DNA of 64,000 bases, taken from assembly GCA_902579465.1 (NCBI GenBank), contig CACHGV010000005.1:1-64000 (forward strand), written 5' to 3'. Shown here one piece after another: positions 46,177 through 50,907 of this stretch. The notes under the pieces were generated by a model. That model was not told the DNA's origin, did no database searches, and saw nothing but the letters and a program-made list of their open reading frames with translations. Every line of letters starts with the position of its first letter. Position 1 is the first letter of the stretch. The stretch comes from an uncultured Pelagibacteraceae bacterium. Lineage in GTDB: Bacteria; Pseudomonadota; Alphaproteobacteria; Pelagibacterales; Pelagibacteraceae. A program made the translations under genes and the position numbers.

Positions 46177-46515
46177 TTAATTTGATTTTCCTACTAAATT
46201 AACAATTAAAACTCCAGATATAATTAGTATTAGACCTATAATTGTAAAAAAGTCAGGAATTTGATTAAATTTATAAATTCCCACAATAGAAGTAGCTATT
46301 ATACATAAGCCTGCGAATGAAGCATATGTTACGCCAACAGGAATAGTTTTCATAACTAAGGATAGTGTATACATACATGCAACTATTGTTATTGCTGTAA
46401 AGACACTTGGTAAAAATATTGTAAAACCATTTGCAGCTTTGGCAAAACCATTTGATGCTGTACCAAGAGCAACTGCAATAATTAAGATTATATAAGCTGT
46501 TATATTACTCATCAA
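46177..46515 (-). CDS. SMR-family-like small membrane protein lacking the conserved Glu
   Basis: The 112-residue protein has four membrane segments and aligns with EmrE through GFTIFLPSV, IPVGVTYASFAGL and the C-terminal ISGVLIVNLVGK. In EmrE and other drug-efflux SMRs the first segment holds Glu14 in AEVIGT, required for proton and drug coupling; the matching segment here is AVALGT, with Val15 in that place. A drug/proton antiporter role is therefore doubtful. It lies 42 bases after the cupredoxin gene on the same strand, probably the last gene of the small-protein operon. Confidence 0.75.
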   Translation of the reverse strand: MMSNITAYIILIIAVALGTASNGFAKAANGFTIFLPSVFTAITIVACMYTLSLVMKTIPVGVTYASFAGLCIIATSIVGIYKFNQIPDFFTIIGLILIISGVLIVNLVGKSN

Positions 46516-46557
46516 TTAAGAATAATATTATCTAAAATTAATATCTATAAAATTATA

Positions 46558-47055
46558 TTATTCAATAATAATTGGCCCAACCATTCCAGTTTCATAATGA
46601 CCCGGAATATTACACGCCATTTCTAAAGAAATATCTTTTGAAAACTTCCAAATAATTTCTCCTGTTTTATTTGGCTCTAGCATTACACTATTTGCGTGTT
46701 TATGGCCTAATGAGTGATCTTTTTTAGACATTTCTTTCATTTTTTTATGATCAATACGGTCGCCTAAAAGAATATCGTGTTCAATTAATCTTGCCATTTC
46801 GGGTTGGTGATCAATATGCATCTTTTTAGTGCCAATATTATATTCATGTACCAGTTCACCTAAATTTTTAACAATTATTTTTACTGTTTCACCTTTTTTA
46901 ACTTGAATTGAACTTGGCTCATAATAATTGTCATACATCTTTACTTCTATTACTCTAGTAACATCATTTGGATTACCCTTAGATCCAATCATCTTCATTG
47001 AAGCTGCATTTGAATTAAAGGCGATAAAAATAAATAAAAGTATTAGTTTTTTCAT
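46558..47055 (-). CDS. secreted cupredoxin with a His/Met-rich insertion
   Basis: The 165-residue protein has a signal peptide ending near FNSNAA (residue 18). A type 1 copper site is visible as His in LGELVHEYNIG and Cys-His-Met in MACNIPGHYETGM. Between the two halves (about residues 80-125) is an insertion with about eight His and several Met, for example MHIDHQPEM and DHSLGHKH, suited to extra copper binding or copper transfer. The ATG overlaps the stop of the upstream SnoaL-like gene (TAATG), so it is part of the operon of small proteins. A periplasmic electron carrier or copper chaperone is likely. Confidence 0.85.
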   Translation of the reverse strand: MKKLILLFIFIAFNSNAASMKMIGSKGNPNDVTRVIEVKMYDNYYEPSSIQVKKGETVKIIVKNLGELVHEYNIGTKKMHIDHQPEMARLIEHDILLGDRIDHKKMKEMSKKDHSLGHKHANSVMLEPNKTGEIIWKFSKDISLEMACNIPGHYETGMVGPIIIE

Positions 47056-47375
47056 TATTTAGGCATTGGTGTTGCGCCAGTCTCTAAACTCATGATTTTT
47101 CCATTATCATATTTATAGACTGCCATTACTGCTTCTGTATTTCCGTCATCAAATGTTACAAATGCGTGGTGTACACCCACTTCATCATTTTCATATACAA
47201 CTCGTGTATCTCTTTGATTAATATCACCACTCATCGCCCATTTGATCACTTCAGCTTTACCTAAAGTATTTCCTGATTTATGCATTGTGAATTTAAAGTC
47301 ATCATGCAAAAGCTCATTCATAGCTGCTTCATCTTTATTTTTTAATGCAGCACTGTATTTTTCTAATATTGACAT
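47055..47375 (-). CDS. SnoaL/NTF2-like small protein (paralogue of the gene at 50101-50430)
   Basis: The preferred start is ATG 47375 (MSILEKYSAAL, 106 residues), with AAAGGAG before it; an upstream ATG at 47399 would overlap the DUF1330 gene. The length, the start MSILEK, an acidic HDDFKF segment, and the end LETGATPMPK match the paralogue near the other end of the operon. NTF2-like proteins form cone-shaped dimers that bind or isomerise small molecules; no catalytic residue can be assigned. One-base overlap with the cupredoxin gene indicates coupling. Confidence 0.8.
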   Translation of the reverse strand: MSILEKYSAALKNKDEAAMNELLHDDFKFTMHKSGNTLGKAEVIKWAMSGDINQRDTRVVYENDEVGVHHAFVTFDDGNTEAVMAVYKYDNGKIMSLETGATPMPK

Positions 47376-47385
47376 TTTATCTCCT

Positions 47386-47673
47386 TTATACTCCTTCAAC
47401 TATTATTCCATTAGTATCTGCGTTATCTAATCGAATTTGTTTTATTGGTTTATATTCTTCAGAATTATACCATTCTTTCGCTTTCTCGTAACTTGGAAAT
47501 TTTATCACAACTGTCCTTGGATGCTGCCATGACCCTTCAATAGTCTCGCTGCTACCACCTCTTACAAGATACTCCCCACCAAATTTTTCTGCAGTGGGTT
47601 TAACTTTGTCTATGTATTCCTTATAATTTTCAGGATTGTTAACATTAAGGTTAAAGATCGCATAACCACTCAT
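47386..47673 (-). CDS. DUF1330 family protein (dimeric alpha/beta barrel)
   Basis: The 95-residue protein matches DUF1330 from AIFNLNVNNPENYKEY through VKPTAEKFGGEYLVRGG (near residues 25-41) and RTVVIKFPSYEKAKEWY. The family has a ferredoxin-like dimeric barrel fold and no settled function. AGGAG precedes its ATG. It sits between the GYD and SnoaL-like genes of the operon. Confidence 0.85.
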   Translation of the reverse strand: MSGYAIFNLNVNNPENYKEYIDKVKPTAEKFGGEYLVRGGSSETIEGSWQHPRTVVIKFPSYEKAKEWYNSEEYKPIKQIRLDNADTNGIIVEGV

Positions 47674-47675
47674 AA

Positions 47676-47999
47676 TTATTCTCCTGGTTTAATAACAGAC
47701 TTTGTGGCATCTGCAGCATTTTGAAAAGCTTTATTGTAGTCAATAACTTCATGTACCATCAAATCATCCATTAGTCCTGAATTTTTAAAAGCAATCTTCA
47801 AGGCTAGTGCTTGTTCATAATCTCCTTCTACACATGAGATAACATCAAATCTACCTCTTACCCATTCATAGCTGATCAATTTTAAACCAGCAGCCTCGGT
47901 AACTTTCTTAGTCGATGCATATCTATCCGCAGAAGGATCATTTTGCATTCTTTTCATTAATTCTGCACTTATTTTGCCAATCAAATAAAATCTTGCCAT
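47676..47999 (-). CDS. GYD-domain-like small protein
   Basis: The best start is ATG 47999 (MARFYLIGK, 108 residues), directly after the upstream gene's stop; the longer frame from 48011 overlaps that gene. The pattern LIGKISAELMKRM, RYASTKKVTEAAGLKLISYEWVRGRFDVI fits the GYD domain (DUF family with ferredoxin-like fold). Function is not known. It is one of six probable alpha/beta-barrel proteins in this operon. Confidence 0.7.
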   Translation of the reverse strand: MARFYLIGKISAELMKRMQNDPSADRYASTKKVTEAAGLKLISYEWVRGRFDVISCVEGDYEQALALKIAFKNSGLMDDLMVHEVIDYNKAFQNAADATKSVIKPGE

Positions 48000-48000
48000 A

Positions 48001-48291
48001 TTACATTTCAACTTTCGTTAAATCCCAAGCAGTCATTTTGATAACACATTCATCGTAAATTTCCTTTCCAACTGGATGTGTACCAGATATTAGTTCTTTC
48101 ATTTTTTCCATATTATGAACAAATACCTTAAACATTACGCCACTTTTATCTGGCTTTACTGCTCCTATAGTTTTTTCTGGATGAGCTGCAGATTTTCTCA
48201 CACTCATACCTTCATCTGATTGCATCCATCCCATAAATTTTTCAAGTTTTCCCTCTTTCAAATCTACGATCACTAAAACTTCTTTTTCCAT
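48001..48291 (-). CDS. small protein, probable dimeric alpha/beta-barrel fold
   Basis: I do not recognise a named family. The 96-residue protein has the beta-alpha-beta rhythm of ABM-like domains: VLVIVDLKEGKLEKFMGWM, then a Lys/Pro-rich loop, then GVMFKVFVHNMEKMKELI and an edge strand CVIKMTAWDL. A perfect AGGAGG precedes the start. It is flanked by other genes of the same size and likely fold. Confidence 0.65.
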   Translation of the reverse strand: MEKEVLVIVDLKEGKLEKFMGWMQSDEGMSVRKSAAHPEKTIGAVKPDKSGVMFKVFVHNMEKMKELISGTHPVGKEIYDECVIKMTAWDLTKVEM

Positions 48292-48300
48292 TTTTTCCTC

Positions 48301-48588
48301 CTATTTGTTAAAATCGAAAACTTCTTCTTTAACCTCAGTAAATTGGTGAGGTTCAAAAAAATCATTCATCTGAGTAAGCTGTTCATTAATAGCATCAGTA
48401 CTTTCTGCCATCCAATGACAAAACATTGTCATAGTATCACCTGGAGTGTAATATGTCATTTGGCATTTAGCTTTATCGCTAGTGGAAGATTTAATCATAT
48501 CTTCTCTGGACATACCGCCTAAAACCTCGTTAAATTTGTCTTTCATTTCTTTAGATTTAAAAGTGTGAGTTACCATATAATATTTCAT
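48301..48588 (-). CDS. small protein of unknown family, probable alpha/beta-barrel fold
   Basis: The 95-residue protein begins KYYMVTHTFKSKEMKDKFNE and has Cys in AKCQMTYYTPG and FCHWMAES, near residues 42 and 57. The alternation of strands and helices and the size match the neighbouring ABM-like proteins; a CHW motif could bind metal but this is speculative. AAGGAG precedes the ATG. Confidence 0.62.
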   Translation of the reverse strand: MKYYMVTHTFKSKEMKDKFNEVLGGMSREDMIKSSTSDKAKCQMTYYTPGDTMTMFCHWMAESTDAINEQLTQMNDFFEPHQFTEVKEEVFDFNK

Positions 48589-48641
48589 TTTTTTCTCCTT
48601 TTTTTTATTTCGTATTTTAAATCAATCTTATGATTATTCAA

Positions 48642-49124
48642 TTATTTCATTAAAGAATATCCACCTTTAAAATAAATTGATGAGGCAAATTTATTTTCTT
48701 GGGCTGAGTTAATTGGTGTGTACCCTGTTGAGCCACTACATTCTATTCCTTTATATTTTCCTGTTCCCCCTAAACATTTAAATGTACCATTCATTGAGTC
48801 TCCAAGTGGAATTTCGTAGTATGTAAAAATAGTATCCCCATCCATTTGATTTATTTTACAGTGTCCCATTTCAAATCCCTTTCCTGGGATTGTACCTGCG
48901 CCAATGCAATATTGTGAAGCATTATCCATGAATGTTGTACCTTCGACTGCCATTAATCCTCCAACTCCATCGTAAGTAAAAGTTAAAAAATTACCCTCGT
49001 TATCAGTAAGAAATTTGTTATCTCCAACAATAAAACCTTTAAGATCAATTTTTCCTTTATGACCGTCTGCAAAACTTGATGTTGTAAATATTAAAAACAA
49101 CATAATTACATATATTTTTTTCAT
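48642..49124 (-). CDS. secreted small protein of unknown function (possible allene-oxide-cyclase-like barrel)
   Basis: The 160-residue protein has a signal peptide KKIYVIMLFLIFTTSSFA with cleavage near residue 19, directly followed by DGHKGKIDLKG. The mature part is rich in Gly and beta-strand residues, with three Cys: CIGAG, MGHCK and FKCLGGTGKYKGIECSG. The phrase GTGKYKGI is seen in allene-oxide-cyclase/dirigent-like barrels, a weak resemblance. It is the only fully beta secreted protein in the operon besides the cupredoxin. Confidence 0.68.
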   Translation of the reverse strand: MKKIYVIMLFLIFTTSSFADGHKGKIDLKGFIVGDNKFLTDNEGNFLTFTYDGVGGLMAVEGTTFMDNASQYCIGAGTIPGKGFEMGHCKINQMDGDTIFTYYEIPLGDSMNGTFKCLGGTGKYKGIECSGSTGYTPINSAQENKFASSIYFKGGYSLMK

Positions 49125-49132
49125 TATTAGAA

Positions 49133-49426
49133 TTATCCTTTGTGGTTCATTACAGATTCATCAGTCATCATGGTCATTTTAGATTGGTCCATTATTACTC
49201 CAGAATCTATTCTTGCTTGAGTTAGTTCTGCATCTCCACCAAAACCTTTTAAGCCCTCGGGTGATTCAAAATGAATAACTACAGTCATAGCATTATCATC
49301 TTCTTTATCTGCACCTGCAAAAGCTATAGTCATTCCATACTTTTTAAGTTTCTCACTATTTGCAAGCATCATTTCCTTCCAAGAATTAAAACCTTTTGAA
49401 AGTTTTTGTTCTATTTTTACAAACAT
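49133..49426 (-). CDS. small ABM-like protein (related to the next gene upstream)
   Basis: The 97-residue protein has FNSWKEMMLANSEKLKKYGM and AMTVVIHFESPEGLKGFGG, then RIDSGVIMD. This W-x-x-M ... G-x-x-x-x-x-G ... VV-x-F-E-S pattern matches the protein encoded at 49453-49722, suggesting an old duplication. Function is not known; the family has a ferredoxin-like dimeric barrel. AGGAG precedes the start. Confidence 0.65.
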   Translation of the reverse strand: MFVKIEQKLSKGFNSWKEMMLANSEKLKKYGMTIAFAGADKEDDNAMTVVIHFESPEGLKGFGGDAELTQARIDSGVIMDQSKMTMMTDESVMNHKG

Positions 49427-49452
49427 AATATATCTCCTTTTTTTTTCTTACT

Positions 49453-49722
49453 TTAATCAGAGCAAACGCTCATTACTGTTGTCTCTTGTTTATGACCAGA
49501 TTCCGCAATTACTTTAGCATTCTCTGGATTCTGCATAAATTTTTGCATAGTGTCTGCTGCTGGTGTTTCCATCACAATATGTACTTTATTTGGATTTTCT
49601 ATTTCATTACCTACGTAAATAGTTTTAATACCTGCTGCTTCCCTAGGACCAGAGTGCTCATCAAACATTTTTTTCCAGTGAGCCCAGTCTTTTACTTCAA
49701 AGTTACCAACCATTTTTACCAT
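49453..49722 (-). CDS. small ABM-like protein
   Basis: The start is set at ATG 49722 (MVKMVGNFEV, 89 residues), one base after the cupin stop with GGAGAA before it; the ATG at 49776 would overlap the cupin gene. The pattern VKDWAHWKKMFDEHSGPREAAGI, then KVHIVMETPAADTMQKFM is like the antibiotic-biosynthesis-monooxygenase-type fold. It ends SVCSD. No catalytic role can be assigned. Confidence 0.65.
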   Translation of the reverse strand: MVKMVGNFEVKDWAHWKKMFDEHSGPREAAGIKTIYVGNEIENPNKVHIVMETPAADTMQKFMQNPENAKVIAESGHKQETTVMSVCSD

Positions 49723-49723
49723 T

Positions 49724-50074
49724 TTATTCTCCCCAAACCCCGGCAAACTCATATGCTTCAACAGGTTCATTGCCAACTACCCAAGCGTCATGACCTGGTG
49801 TTACGGAGTAAGAATCTCCTGCTTTATATGTAACCTCTGTTCCATCATCGTGTTTTGCACAAACAGATCCCTTTGTGATAATTCCAATATGGTTTGCCTG
49901 ACAACTGTCAGTTCCAATATGTGGCTTAACATCTGTAGACCATTTCCATCCTGGTTTTAAATGTAATCTAACTACTCTTTGACCGCCTACTTTAACTGCT
50001 TCTATTTTAGCATTATTAAACTTATCAACTACCTCATCTGCTTTATCAAAGGTTTTAACTTCAATACTACTCAT
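49724..50074 (-). CDS. cupin-domain protein
   Basis: The 116-residue protein has the cupin core from VVRLHLKPGWKWSTDVKP through ANHIGIITKGSVCAKHDDGTE (motif 1) to YKAGDSYSVTPGHDAWVVGNE (motif 2). His residues are available for a metal but the first motif is not the full consensus. AGGAG precedes the ATG. It may bind a small ligand; its place is third in the small-protein operon. Confidence 0.8.
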   Translation of the reverse strand: MSSIEVKTFDKADEVVDKFNNAKIEAVKVGGQRVVRLHLKPGWKWSTDVKPHIGTDSCQANHIGIITKGSVCAKHDDGTEVTYKAGDSYSVTPGHDAWVVGNEPVEAYEFAGVWGE

Positions 50075-50100
50075 ATTAAACTCCTTCTGTTAGTTTATAA

Positions 50101-50430
50101 TTATTTTGGTATTTTGGTTGCGCCTGTTTCGAGTTCAATGATTTTACCATCTTTAAATTTCCAATAACACATTAAAGCCTCTTTATTTCCATCTTCGGCA
50201 TAAGTAACAATAGAATGATCAAAACCTATTTCATCGTTTTCATATAAAATTCTATATTTATCAACTTTCATGAAACCTTTGTTAATTGCTTCAATCATAC
50301 CTGTTTTTCCACTTTCAGTATAGGCTCCCTGAAGATGAGAATATCTCTTATAATCATCATGAATAATCTCAGCTGCTGCTGCACCATCTTTTTCCATGAT
50401 TGCTTTATTAAGTTTTTCTAAAATTGACAT
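50101..50430 (-). CDS. SnoaL/NTF2-like small protein (paralogue of 47055-47375)
   Basis: The 109-residue protein starts MSILEKLNKAIMEKDGA and ends LETGATKIPK, like the other paralogue. Shared segments include HDDYKR, RILYENDEIG and FKDGKIIELETGAT. The function is not known; the fold is NTF2-like. AGGAAC precedes the ATG. It is second in the operon. Confidence 0.8.
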   Translation of the reverse strand: MSILEKLNKAIMEKDGAAAAEIIHDDYKRYSHLQGAYTESGKTGMIEAINKGFMKVDKYRILYENDEIGFDHSIVTYAEDGNKEALMCYWKFKDGKIIELETGATKIPK

Positions 50431-50438
50431 ATTGTTCC

Positions 50439-50822
50439 TTACTTCTTCATTGCATTGAACATGCTAAGCGTATCATCAAAAGTCATCATAACTTTAGTTT
50501 TTCCCTCATCACTTACTTCAAAATAGTGACCAAACATAGTATCCATGTTATCCGCAGTTGCATGAACTCTTGCAAAAACTTTATTTCCTTCACTTATCAT
50601 ATCTAAAACTTTTAAATGGAAATTTGGCCAAGTAGCTGGGATTTTAGACATTGCAGCCATCATAGCTTGTTTCCCTTTGTGAACTCCAGAAAGTGGATGT
50701 ACACCTTCTTTACCTGGAAAAGTCCAAACGATTTCATCATCGATCATATCATTAAAAAATGTTTCCATATCTCCTGAACCAAATAGTTCATATGCTTTTT
50801 TAGTTTGCTCTTTTACGTCCAT
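50439..50822 (-). CDS. SnoaL-like/ketosteroid-isomerase-fold protein
   Basis: The 127-residue protein is a typical SnoaL-like domain: KKAYELFGSGDMETFFNDMIDDEIVWTFPG, then HPLSGVHKGKQAMM and VFARVHATADNMDT. This architecture matches PHZA/PHZB and SnoaL-like proteins and not the shorter MSILEK paralogues. It is the first gene of the operon; AAAGGAG lies before the ATG, and a candidate promoter and dyad lie upstream. Confidence 0.82.
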   Translation of the reverse strand: MDVKEQTKKAYELFGSGDMETFFNDMIDDEIVWTFPGKEGVHPLSGVHKGKQAMMAAMSKIPATWPNFHLKVLDMISEGNKVFARVHATADNMDTMFGHYFEVSDEGKTKVMMTFDDTLSMFNAMKK

Positions 50823-50858: not shown

Positions 50859-50864
50859 ATTATA
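50859..50864 (-). promoter_or_regulatory. candidate -10 element of the small-protein operon
   Basis: On the minus strand TATAAT reads from 50864 down to 50859, leaving a leader of about 30 bases before the SnoaL-like ATG at 50822. No good -35 is seen at 17 bases; the place is taken by an inverted repeat. The gap 50823-50907 is the only one upstream of this operon. Confidence 0.38.
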
Positions 50865-50873
50865 AGATAGAAA

Positions 50874-50891
50874 TGTAATGAATTTATTACA
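50874..50891. promoter_or_regulatory. inverted repeat TGTAAT-N6-ATTACA upstream of the small-protein operon
   Basis: TGTAAT (50874-50879) and ATTACA (50886-50891) form an 18-base dyad centred where the -35 of the operon would lie. The form is that of a dimeric regulator site. No regulator gene is near, so the cognate protein would be encoded elsewhere. Confidence 0.35.
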
Positions 50892-50907
50892 GTACTGCTA
50901 TGCGTGA

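Follow-up and report, generated by a model that had tools for sequence, protein, structure and literature searches.

The window analysed here is a 64,000-nucleotide stretch of DNA from a SAR11 genome (G000; 1.11 Mb in 27 contigs, about 79% complete), and its subject is a block of thirteen consecutive minus-strand open reading frames (ORFs, called with ATG starts) that runs behind the gene cysK from position 50822 down to 46177. These ORFs are operon-like, real genes and no chance collection. Comparison with relatives supports well that they belong to a real system, a conserved and reshuffled array that keeps its position, its repertoire, a quasi-fixed gene order and a private cis element, and that recurs elsewhere as operons. 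As to its role, we favour, at a probability of roughly 40%, an adaptable operon for dealing with small reactive organic molecules, its content being tuned by recombination.

A variable array in a fixed slot behind cysK

The gene cysK was searched in 121 genomes (the window's own and 120 relatives) at E <= 1e-100, and matches were found in 58, every one within the window's genus. The downstream stretch was taken for 57 full-length matches, the window included; four contigs end too soon, and at least three array-family genes follow cysK in 51 of the 53 informative loci. The repertoire consists of SnoaL_a, SnoaL_bc, DUF1330, GYD, DUF3764, cupin and secreted cupin proteins and the families of window genes g6, g7 and g8 (see the list below), together with a secreted 124-residue protein, a 104-residue protein, a DsbA-family protein, DUF2798, one or two SMR-fold proteins and others. 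Genes were called with our own ORF caller and with hidden Markov models (HMMs) that were themselves derived from sequence clusters at these loci; any cluster not chosen for a model stayed unlabelled ('u').

Pooled with the loci found by DUF3764 (the best 80 of 146 relatives), these intervals give 100 complete ones, which reduce to 92 distinct arrays and 51 architectures, the split g6 gene of L127 adding one to the latter count. The pooled set over-counts DUF3764 and the genes linked to it, whereas the cysK-based set is free of this bias, and some locus labels denote the same genome (for instance L034/L124 and L032/L113). Across the 92 arrays, SMR is present in 90, SnoaL_bc in 83, DUF1330 in 73, g8 in 71, SnoaL_a in 57 and DUF3764 in 55, with g6 (45), the DsbA family (36), GYD (34), g7 (33), CopI (27) and cupin (18) being rarer. 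The median array protein has 109 residues, 96% of the array genes lie on the cysK strand, and short types such as cysK-sec124-m137-SnoaL-tm75-SMR also occur.

In spite of this variation in content, 920 of 965 pairwise comparisons of family order (95%) agree with the majority, whereas 200 shuffles gave 62% on average and 66% at most. The window's own thirteen-gene order is repeated in seven genomes (L034, which is L124, L111, L115, L118, L120, L123 and L125) and is thus no assembly accident. A preliminary description of this DNA had proposed one multi-gene system and a test of gene order across SAR11; the shared repertoire, fixed position and kept order bear this proposal out. It had also regarded scattered genes in varying combinations as the mark of a chance collection. 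Combinations do vary widely, but the genes occupy one site, in a quasi-fixed order and mostly with one cis element. Chance or mis-called ORFs are ruled out by the conservation of the array, the consistency of its order and the ratios of nonsynonymous to synonymous substitution (dN/dS). An integron cassette array, in which free order is expected, was likewise rejected given the 95% conserved order; no integrase appears among the labelled array families, where integrase models were not searched.

Individual genes evolve as a mosaic. In 28 loci of the window's layout (two genomes appear twice), identity to the window falls into discrete classes: 99-100, 87-94 or 60-62% for SnoaL_a, 99-100, 91 (once) or 75-80% for SnoaL_b, 96-100, 88 or 72% for GYD, and 91-100, 82 (once) or 65-71% for DUF1330. 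Genes adjacent to divergent alleles at the same locus are often 97-100% identical, and the cupin, both DUF3764 genes, g6 and g7 are 95-100% identical wherever present. Alleles have therefore been replaced gene by gene. Identity of the flanking DUF952 and hisN genes also ranges from 72 to 100%, so that recombination extends beyond the array. Median dN/dS, from pairs that are not independent, is 0.05-0.47 for the array families and 0.04-0.22 for the flanks; the array genes are mostly maintained under purifying selection, DUF3764 and SMR least strictly.

These data also bear on the idea that small accessory genes with no function in common have collected at a recombination hot spot. Its likelihood appears very slim: strongly variable content, gene-by-gene allele swaps and the breakage of g6 at two loci would all suit it, but a restricted repertoire, 95% order consistency, a private element, occurrence in other contexts and median dN/dS values of 0.05-0.47 speak against it.

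That the families work together is best supported by their recurrence in unrelated places. DUF3764 relatives were found in 31 of 48 relatives outside the genus, all within SAR11 family f2, in which the window cysK has no match at E <= 1e-100. At the f2 loci a single short operon combines, in subsets that differ from locus to locus, GYD, DUF3764, SnoaL_a, an ABM protein, the cupin or g7 and a sec142-like protein; its neighbours are mostly msrA and an SDR-like gene (both named from sequence) and a putative methyltransferase gene that gave no Pfam match. Among 289 class-wide genomes, our own included, DUF3764 occurs in five (in G404 with an internal stop) and the cupin in 13; nine of the 12 cupin-bearing genomes among the 288 outside ones were examined (G191, G215 and G243 were left out). 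Small groups of these or similar families were found around the class-wide matches and in two gammaproteobacterial records. They include, in other Alphaproteobacteria, the mini-arrays g8-cupin-abm104-SnoaL_bc (L207), g8-cupin-SnoaL_bc (L208) and DUF6854-cupin-(111-residue gene)-cupin-GYD-g7 (L213), the pairs DUF3303-DUF3764 (L149) and GYD-DUF3764 (L142), and, outside SAR11, an ABM-like gene with a cupin and a GYD-like gene further on, with an HxlR regulator and a GST nearby (L211). In an alphaproteobacterium of about 2 Mb (L107:1-5046), SnoaL_bc-DUF3764 is flanked on one side by a Phage_integrase plus DUF6538 gene and on the other by another DUF6538 gene, truncated where the contig stops, an arrangement suggesting that small array units are transferred. 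At L215:5078-6390, in an unrelated alphaproteobacterium of 3.3 Mb, an array-type cupin is followed after an 8-bp gap by a cysK-like PALP gene. The matches at L108, L109, L209, L212 and L214 had no companion array families. Phage carriage of DUF3764 was considered and discarded, since none was found in viral contigs.

Folds of the array proteins and an SMR homologue without Glu14

The thirteen genes, numbered from the cysK end, are listed with their lengths in codons from the ATG start:

50439..50822, minus strand: g1, SnoaL_a, NTF2-like; 127; Pfam SnoaL_2, E 2e-11, over cut-off
50101..50430, minus strand: g2, SnoaL_b, NTF2-like; 109; DUF4440, E 1.7e-4, below the Pfam cut-off
49724..50074, minus strand: g3, cupin; 116; Cupin_2, E 5e-4, below cut-off
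49453..49722, minus strand: g4, DUF3764; 89; Pfam DUF3764, E 4e-10, over cut-off (the score is that of a longer TTG-started ORF; the ATG start at 49722 is our choice)
49133..49426, minus strand: g5, DUF3764; 97; E 6e-5, 23.6 bits against a cut-off of 24
48642..49124, minus strand: g6, putatively secreted barrel protein; 160; N-terminal hydrophobic signal, judged by eye
48301..48588, minus strand: g7, SCO4226-like; 95; Pfam E 5e-4, below cut-off
48001..48291, minus strand: g8, predicted ferredoxin-like fold of the dimeric alpha/beta-barrel kind; 96; AlphaFold/Foldseek
47676..47999, minus strand: g9, GYD-domain protein; 107; GYD, E 4.5e-6, 27.0 bits against a cut-off of 31.4
47386..47673, minus strand: g10, DUF1330; 95; Pfam E 2e-34; PDB 2fiu, E 3e-19
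47055..47375, minus strand: g11, SnoaL_c; 106; SnoaL_2, E 8e-8, over cut-off
46558..47055, minus strand: g12, secreted CopI-like cupredoxin; 165; Cupredoxin_1, E 4e-8
46177..46512, minus strand: g13, SMR-fold membrane protein; 111; Multi_Drug_Res, E 5e-13, 49.9 bits against 23.7

The gene count, sizes and folds of the preliminary description are upheld by the ORF calls, by Pfam and by two AlphaFold models, as are its short gaps (mostly below 55 bases), the 12 intergenic distances measuring -1 to 53 bp. The strong AGGAG-type ribosome sites reported there were recovered, as AGGAG, GGAG or AAGGA types, 5' of 10 of the 13 genes; none is obvious for GYD, CopI and SMR.

By fold, the block comprises three SnoaL/NTF2 proteins, six of the dimeric alpha/beta-barrel type, a cupin, a secreted barrel, a cupredoxin and an SMR homologue; for g4, g5, g7 and g9 we take the dimeric alpha/beta-barrel fold to be that of their Pfam families. 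Genes g2 and g11 share one sequence cluster and family model. With the exception of g6, g12 and g13, no signal peptide or membrane span was seen by eye in the window proteins (10 of 13). The only two SnoaL_2 matches and the sole SMR match of the window genome, within its 79% or so of completeness, are those inside the block.

Two proteins left without a useful Pfam match were modelled. The AlphaFold model of g6 (mean predicted local distance difference test score, pLDDT, 84.9) is an eight-stranded barrel, and Foldseek matched it to the dirigent protein JAC1 (E 8.9e-5), the cyclase PloI4 (3e-4) and then to pyocyanin demethylase and allene oxide cyclase (2e-3), with modest TM-scores of about 0.45-0.56 across the nine matches with E <= 0.001. 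We thus assign g6, which had no Pfam match, to a predicted dirigent/allene-oxide-cyclase-like barrel. The model of g8, for which Pfam gave nothing useful (mean pLDDT 91.7), matches the polyketide cyclase OAC (E 1.1e-4), ABM proteins and LsrG, consistent with a ferredoxin-like fold of the ABM/OAC kind, the barrel assignment being drawn from a single-chain model. Most soluble members are therefore assigned, from sequence and predicted structure, to folds best known from proteins that bind small organic molecules or rearrange them, and the earlier expectation of pocket folds for small ligands holds for almost every one of them.

Such resemblances could also indicate a compact biosynthetic or tailoring pathway: a small signal or defence compound for secretion would be shaped by oxygenases and by cyclases (SnoaL, the OAC-like barrels and the allene-oxide-cyclase/dirigent barrel), with different products where populations differ in gene content. 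The nearest structures do include the natural-product cyclases IdmH (the PDB match of g1, E 0.004), OAC and PloI4 and dirigent proteins, and a content that varies within a fixed order is what tailoring enzymes might show. Yet the 13 genes include no polyketide, terpene or peptide core synthase and no scaffold supplier, and no core synthase was recognised among the labelled array families of relatives. SnoaL/IdmH, OAC, ABM, LsrG and the dirigent, allene oxide cyclase and PloI4 group resemble g1/g2/g11, g8 and g6 in fold, at a low structure-match identity of about 6-18%, and, unlike those cyclases, the genes here have no synthase nearby. We consider this pathway unlikely.

The cupredoxin had suggested a copper or other metal-handling role with periplasmic parts. 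CopI is the best NCBIfam model for g12 (E 5e-45), which scores 153.4 bits against an equivalog cut-off of 280 and falls short of it. A copper-site pattern of our own design, C-x4-H-x4-M with an upstream His, is intact in 24 of 24 distinct CopI-family members, and g7 resembles, below cut-off, the nickel-responsive SCO4226. However, CopI is present in only 27 and g7 in 33 of the 92 distinct arrays, and at L073, L090 and L098 a gene of the CopI family is found in another place, next to the ETHE1-like gene. With the cupredoxin in so small a minority, the array is not a copper system, and the metal role that the preliminary description had offered for the block as a whole falls away as its common function; metal handling in general seems to us highly improbable.

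The membrane protein g13 aligns to EmrE at E 8e-13 over a similar length. One SMR gene is found in 47 of the 92 arrays and two in 43; 86 of the 93 distinct SMR-fold sequences compared come from these arrays. Glu14, Tyr60 and Trp63 are described as highly conserved in SMR proteins, and coupling is said to need anionic pocket residues (extracts of PMC11133458). In the alignment to EmrE, the Glu14 position holds V in 59 and I in 34 of the 93 (a gapless alternative would place an invariant Gly there), the Trp63 position holds F in 50 and Y in 43, Tyr60 is retained in all, and one Asn and one Lys of helix 1 are invariant. No E or D occurs at the 21 helix-1 columns in any of the 93 sequences; acidic residues of six longer ORFs are confined to the N-terminal extension. 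The array proteins thus share sequence family, length and Tyr60 with EmrE-type exporters and differ from them in the residues at positions 14 and 63 and in the helix-1 Asn and Lys. Since Glu14 is replaced throughout and helix 1 has no acidic residue, an EmrE-like proton/drug pump is rejected, and the 'SMR-like' protein of the earlier text does not stand in its drug-pump sense.

A known anti-phage defence system was also rejected: PADLOC, run on 10 of the 13 window proteins (all but g2, g4 and g13), returned only a weak match for g9 (E 0.002 over 33 residues).

Around the block, cysK lies upstream of g1 at a gap of 85 bp and is part of a same-strand group with a hexapeptide-repeat acetyltransferase gene (cysE-like) and a metallo-beta-lactamase-fold gene that is presumably ETHE1-like; beyond the latter a 1-Cys peroxiredoxin gene stands on the opposite strand. 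DUF952 and CMD genes in opposite orientation border the far side. A four-gene ABC-transporter cassette, which from its sequence we take to be of the peptide/opine type, follows CMD in L032, L033 and L052-L055 and is not seen in the window. Outside the array, G000 carries two tandem DUF1330 genes amid other genes on contig 4 (L191:6770-7399), and on contig 3 an ABM-family gene adjoins a rhodanese-like gene and msrB (L192:5250-6505); small barrel proteins may be linked to methionine-sulphoxide repair, through msrB here and msrA in the f2 arrays. A lone DUF3764 gene stands amid six type IV pilin-like genes in a SAR11 locus (L037:1354-10493; one cluster, N_methyl confirmed in the two scanned).

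A cis element between cysK and the array

The spacer upstream of g1 contains two features:

50874..50903, minus strand: 30-bp cis element GCATAnCwG-n3-TGTAAyAAAAnnnTTACA upstream of the array, the window copy having one mismatch
50859..50864, minus strand: TATAAT, a -10-like hexamer after the element, read from the sequence

At most loci the element sits between cysK and the first array gene, and in the window it holds a 6+6 dyad, TGTAAT/ATTACA. Across 2.43 Mb of locus sequence, in which some genomes are counted twice, a longer form was matched 81 times, and 80 of these copies stand directly behind cysK; the 81st (L071) lies behind an inserted gene, yet immediately upstream of the array, and at L077 a weaker copy likewise stays with the array after an insertion behind cysK. 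In the whole-genome scan, the element occurs once each in 42 of 81 same-genus genomes, against no match for the reversed control pattern. By coordinates, 36 of the 42 lie at most 10 bp from the end of the cysK match; the remaining ones are G066 (the L071 case), G032 (on another contig) and G409 and G414-G416 (outside the cysK search). Of the 58 cysK-bearing genomes, 38 have it. As the element travels with the array in L071 and L077, termination of cysK is not its whole meaning and a cysK terminator alone is ruled out; where adjacent, it may also end cysK transcripts.

The two halves of the dyad pair at most positions, and substitutions occur as pairs, C-G for T-A and one G-C for A-T (a count that includes a few background matches), which would suit a protein-binding site in DNA as well as a hairpin in RNA. 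The element has no match in Rfam. A regulon was discounted because a second copy was found in none of the 42 genomes at up to 3 mismatches, many of these genomes being incomplete. The promoter scan did not list the TATAAT hexamer among its sites, and inside the block sigma-70 sites and intrinsic terminators are no more frequent than in shuffles. Between m137 and the array, L035, L083, L087, L092 and L135-L141 show another spacer, about TGCATAtCTGTCGCG, possibly a second type of the same promoter.

The position behind cysK raises the alternative of a thiol/persulphide or cysteine-linked system tied to cysK-cysE, the ETHE1-like hydrolase and peroxiredoxin. The association with cysK in 51 of 53 informative loci favours it, as does the cupin-cysK-like pair of L215. 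It is rendered improbable by the element, which keeps with the array and not with cysK after the insertions in L071 and L077, by the f2 operons, which have the gene set beside msrA in genomes without a cysK match, and by the window array proteins, among which no sulphur-tied Pfam family was found.

A possible operon for reactive small molecules

For the favoured interpretation, we suggest that a promoter in the cysK-g1 spacer would drive the block as a single transcription unit. In the cytoplasm, the SnoaL, alpha/beta-barrel and cupin proteins would bind reactive small organics and convert them by isomerisation, cyclisation, oxidation or hydrolysis; candidates are quinones, enals and other aldehydes, oxylipins and polyketide-like compounds, which could derive from seawater or from photo-oxidation. 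The secreted dirigent/allene-oxide-cyclase-like barrel and, in some genomes, the cupredoxin or a secreted cupin might carry out a periplasmic step on the same compounds, while the SMR-fold and DUF2798 membrane proteins may pass a non-cationic compound or lipid, or anchor the set. Populations would adjust the gene set to local chemistry by homologous recombination between conserved flanks. What leads us to reactive molecules is that the folds are nearest to known small-molecule cyclases and ABM proteins, together with the DsbA-family gene (presumably HCCA-isomerase-like) of 36 of the 92 arrays, the genes in two of the 51 architectures that we take to be glyoxalase-like, the upstream peroxiredoxin and metallo-beta-lactamase-fold genes, and the HxlR and GST genes near L211. 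Behind this interpretation we rank biosynthesis, then a thiol/persulphide system, then metal handling.

A number of observations weigh against it. Regarding function, such folds are also found in biosynthetic enzymes and in proteins that simply bind a ligand; with contents that differ this much between arrays, the full set of parts cannot be required for any one substrate; and export of the EmrE kind by the SMR-fold proteins is, from their sequences, unlikely. In a SAR11 isolate under sulphur limitation, cysK and cysE are reported as not induced, and the array set is not mentioned in the extracts of that account (PMC5069961). Regarding the array as a unit, L089 and L091 carry none behind cysK, DUF3764 also stands apart from the other families (L037-L039, L108, L109 and L162), and the window genome has two further copies of DUF1330 and one of ABM elsewhere, so that not every such fold lies in the block.

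Control and selection are not uniform either. The element is missing, at up to 3 mismatches, from 20 of the 58 cysK genomes, a set that includes loci with m137 facing cysK, with inserted genes or at contig ends; where m137 faces cysK the complete element is absent, most of these loci having the different conserved spacer given above. No regulator was recognised in the array, and an HxlR-type candidate was dropped, HxlR being present in only 5 of 41 genomes and absent from the window's. Median dN/dS reaches 0.47 for DUF3764 (90th percentile 1.03), 0.36 for SMR, 0.31 for tm75 and 0.28 for g6, and the 90th percentiles of GYD, tm75, sec124 and g6 are 0.67-0.73; selection on these families is thus not uniformly strict. 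Finally, g6 is shortened in L123 (10300-10698) and split into two ORFs in L127 (10300-10785), the secreted barrel gene therefore being lost in places.

We also put forward, more tentatively, a modular line for converting small molecules, assembled by each SAR11 genome in its own way, in which one private operator/promoter would drive ordered, interchangeable pocket proteins in a fixed slot and the Glu-less SMR-fold protein would move or anchor the product.

The array resembles several described systems in part. Like replacement flexible genomic islands, as presented in extracts of PMC4033161, it offers the same slot in different strains to different genes of similar type, and homologous recombination between conserved flanks is plausible here; those islands typically code for exposed surface structures, whereas this array codes mainly for cytoplasmic pocket proteins, and, unlike them, it keeps gene order and has a cis element of its own. 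The SAR11 hypervariable regions HVR1-HVR4 (PMC2217521) share variable gene content at fixed genome places but are dominated by cell-surface, transport/secretion and unknown genes; cysK, cysteine synthase, cupin, SnoaL and multidrug do not occur in the text of that paper. The Arctic SAR11 glycine-betaine island (PMC12421898) has SMR and DMT transporters, lactoylglutathione lyase and 3-hydroxyisobutyrate dehydrogenase, gene types that also turn up in some arrays; it differs in its glycine betaine/carnitine core, always upstream of betaine/choline/proline ABC genes, and the extracts name no SnoaL, barrel or cupin genes. The array is likewise not described in the extracts of a paper on SAR11 habitat genes (PMC12636525). 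A search of open PMC full text for SAR11 or Pelagibacter with array families other than SMR, which led to the glycine-betaine island, returned nothing judged relevant, so that within this scope, which takes in no subscription journals, preprints or supplements, the array is undescribed in print.

SAR11 is the most abundant bacterial group of the surface ocean, and its genome is among the smallest of free-living cells. That such a cell devotes about 4.6 kb to fast-changing pocket proteins with their own promoter element would mean, if our interpretation is true, that small molecules persist as a concern despite genome streamlining, and naming what the proteins act on would reveal a chemical interaction in seawater that has gone unseen until now. 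The SMR proteins without Glu14 offer a natural test of the SMR fold without proton-coupled drug export and, should the modular line prove true, the Glu-less protein or pair would be a new functional class of the SMR family.

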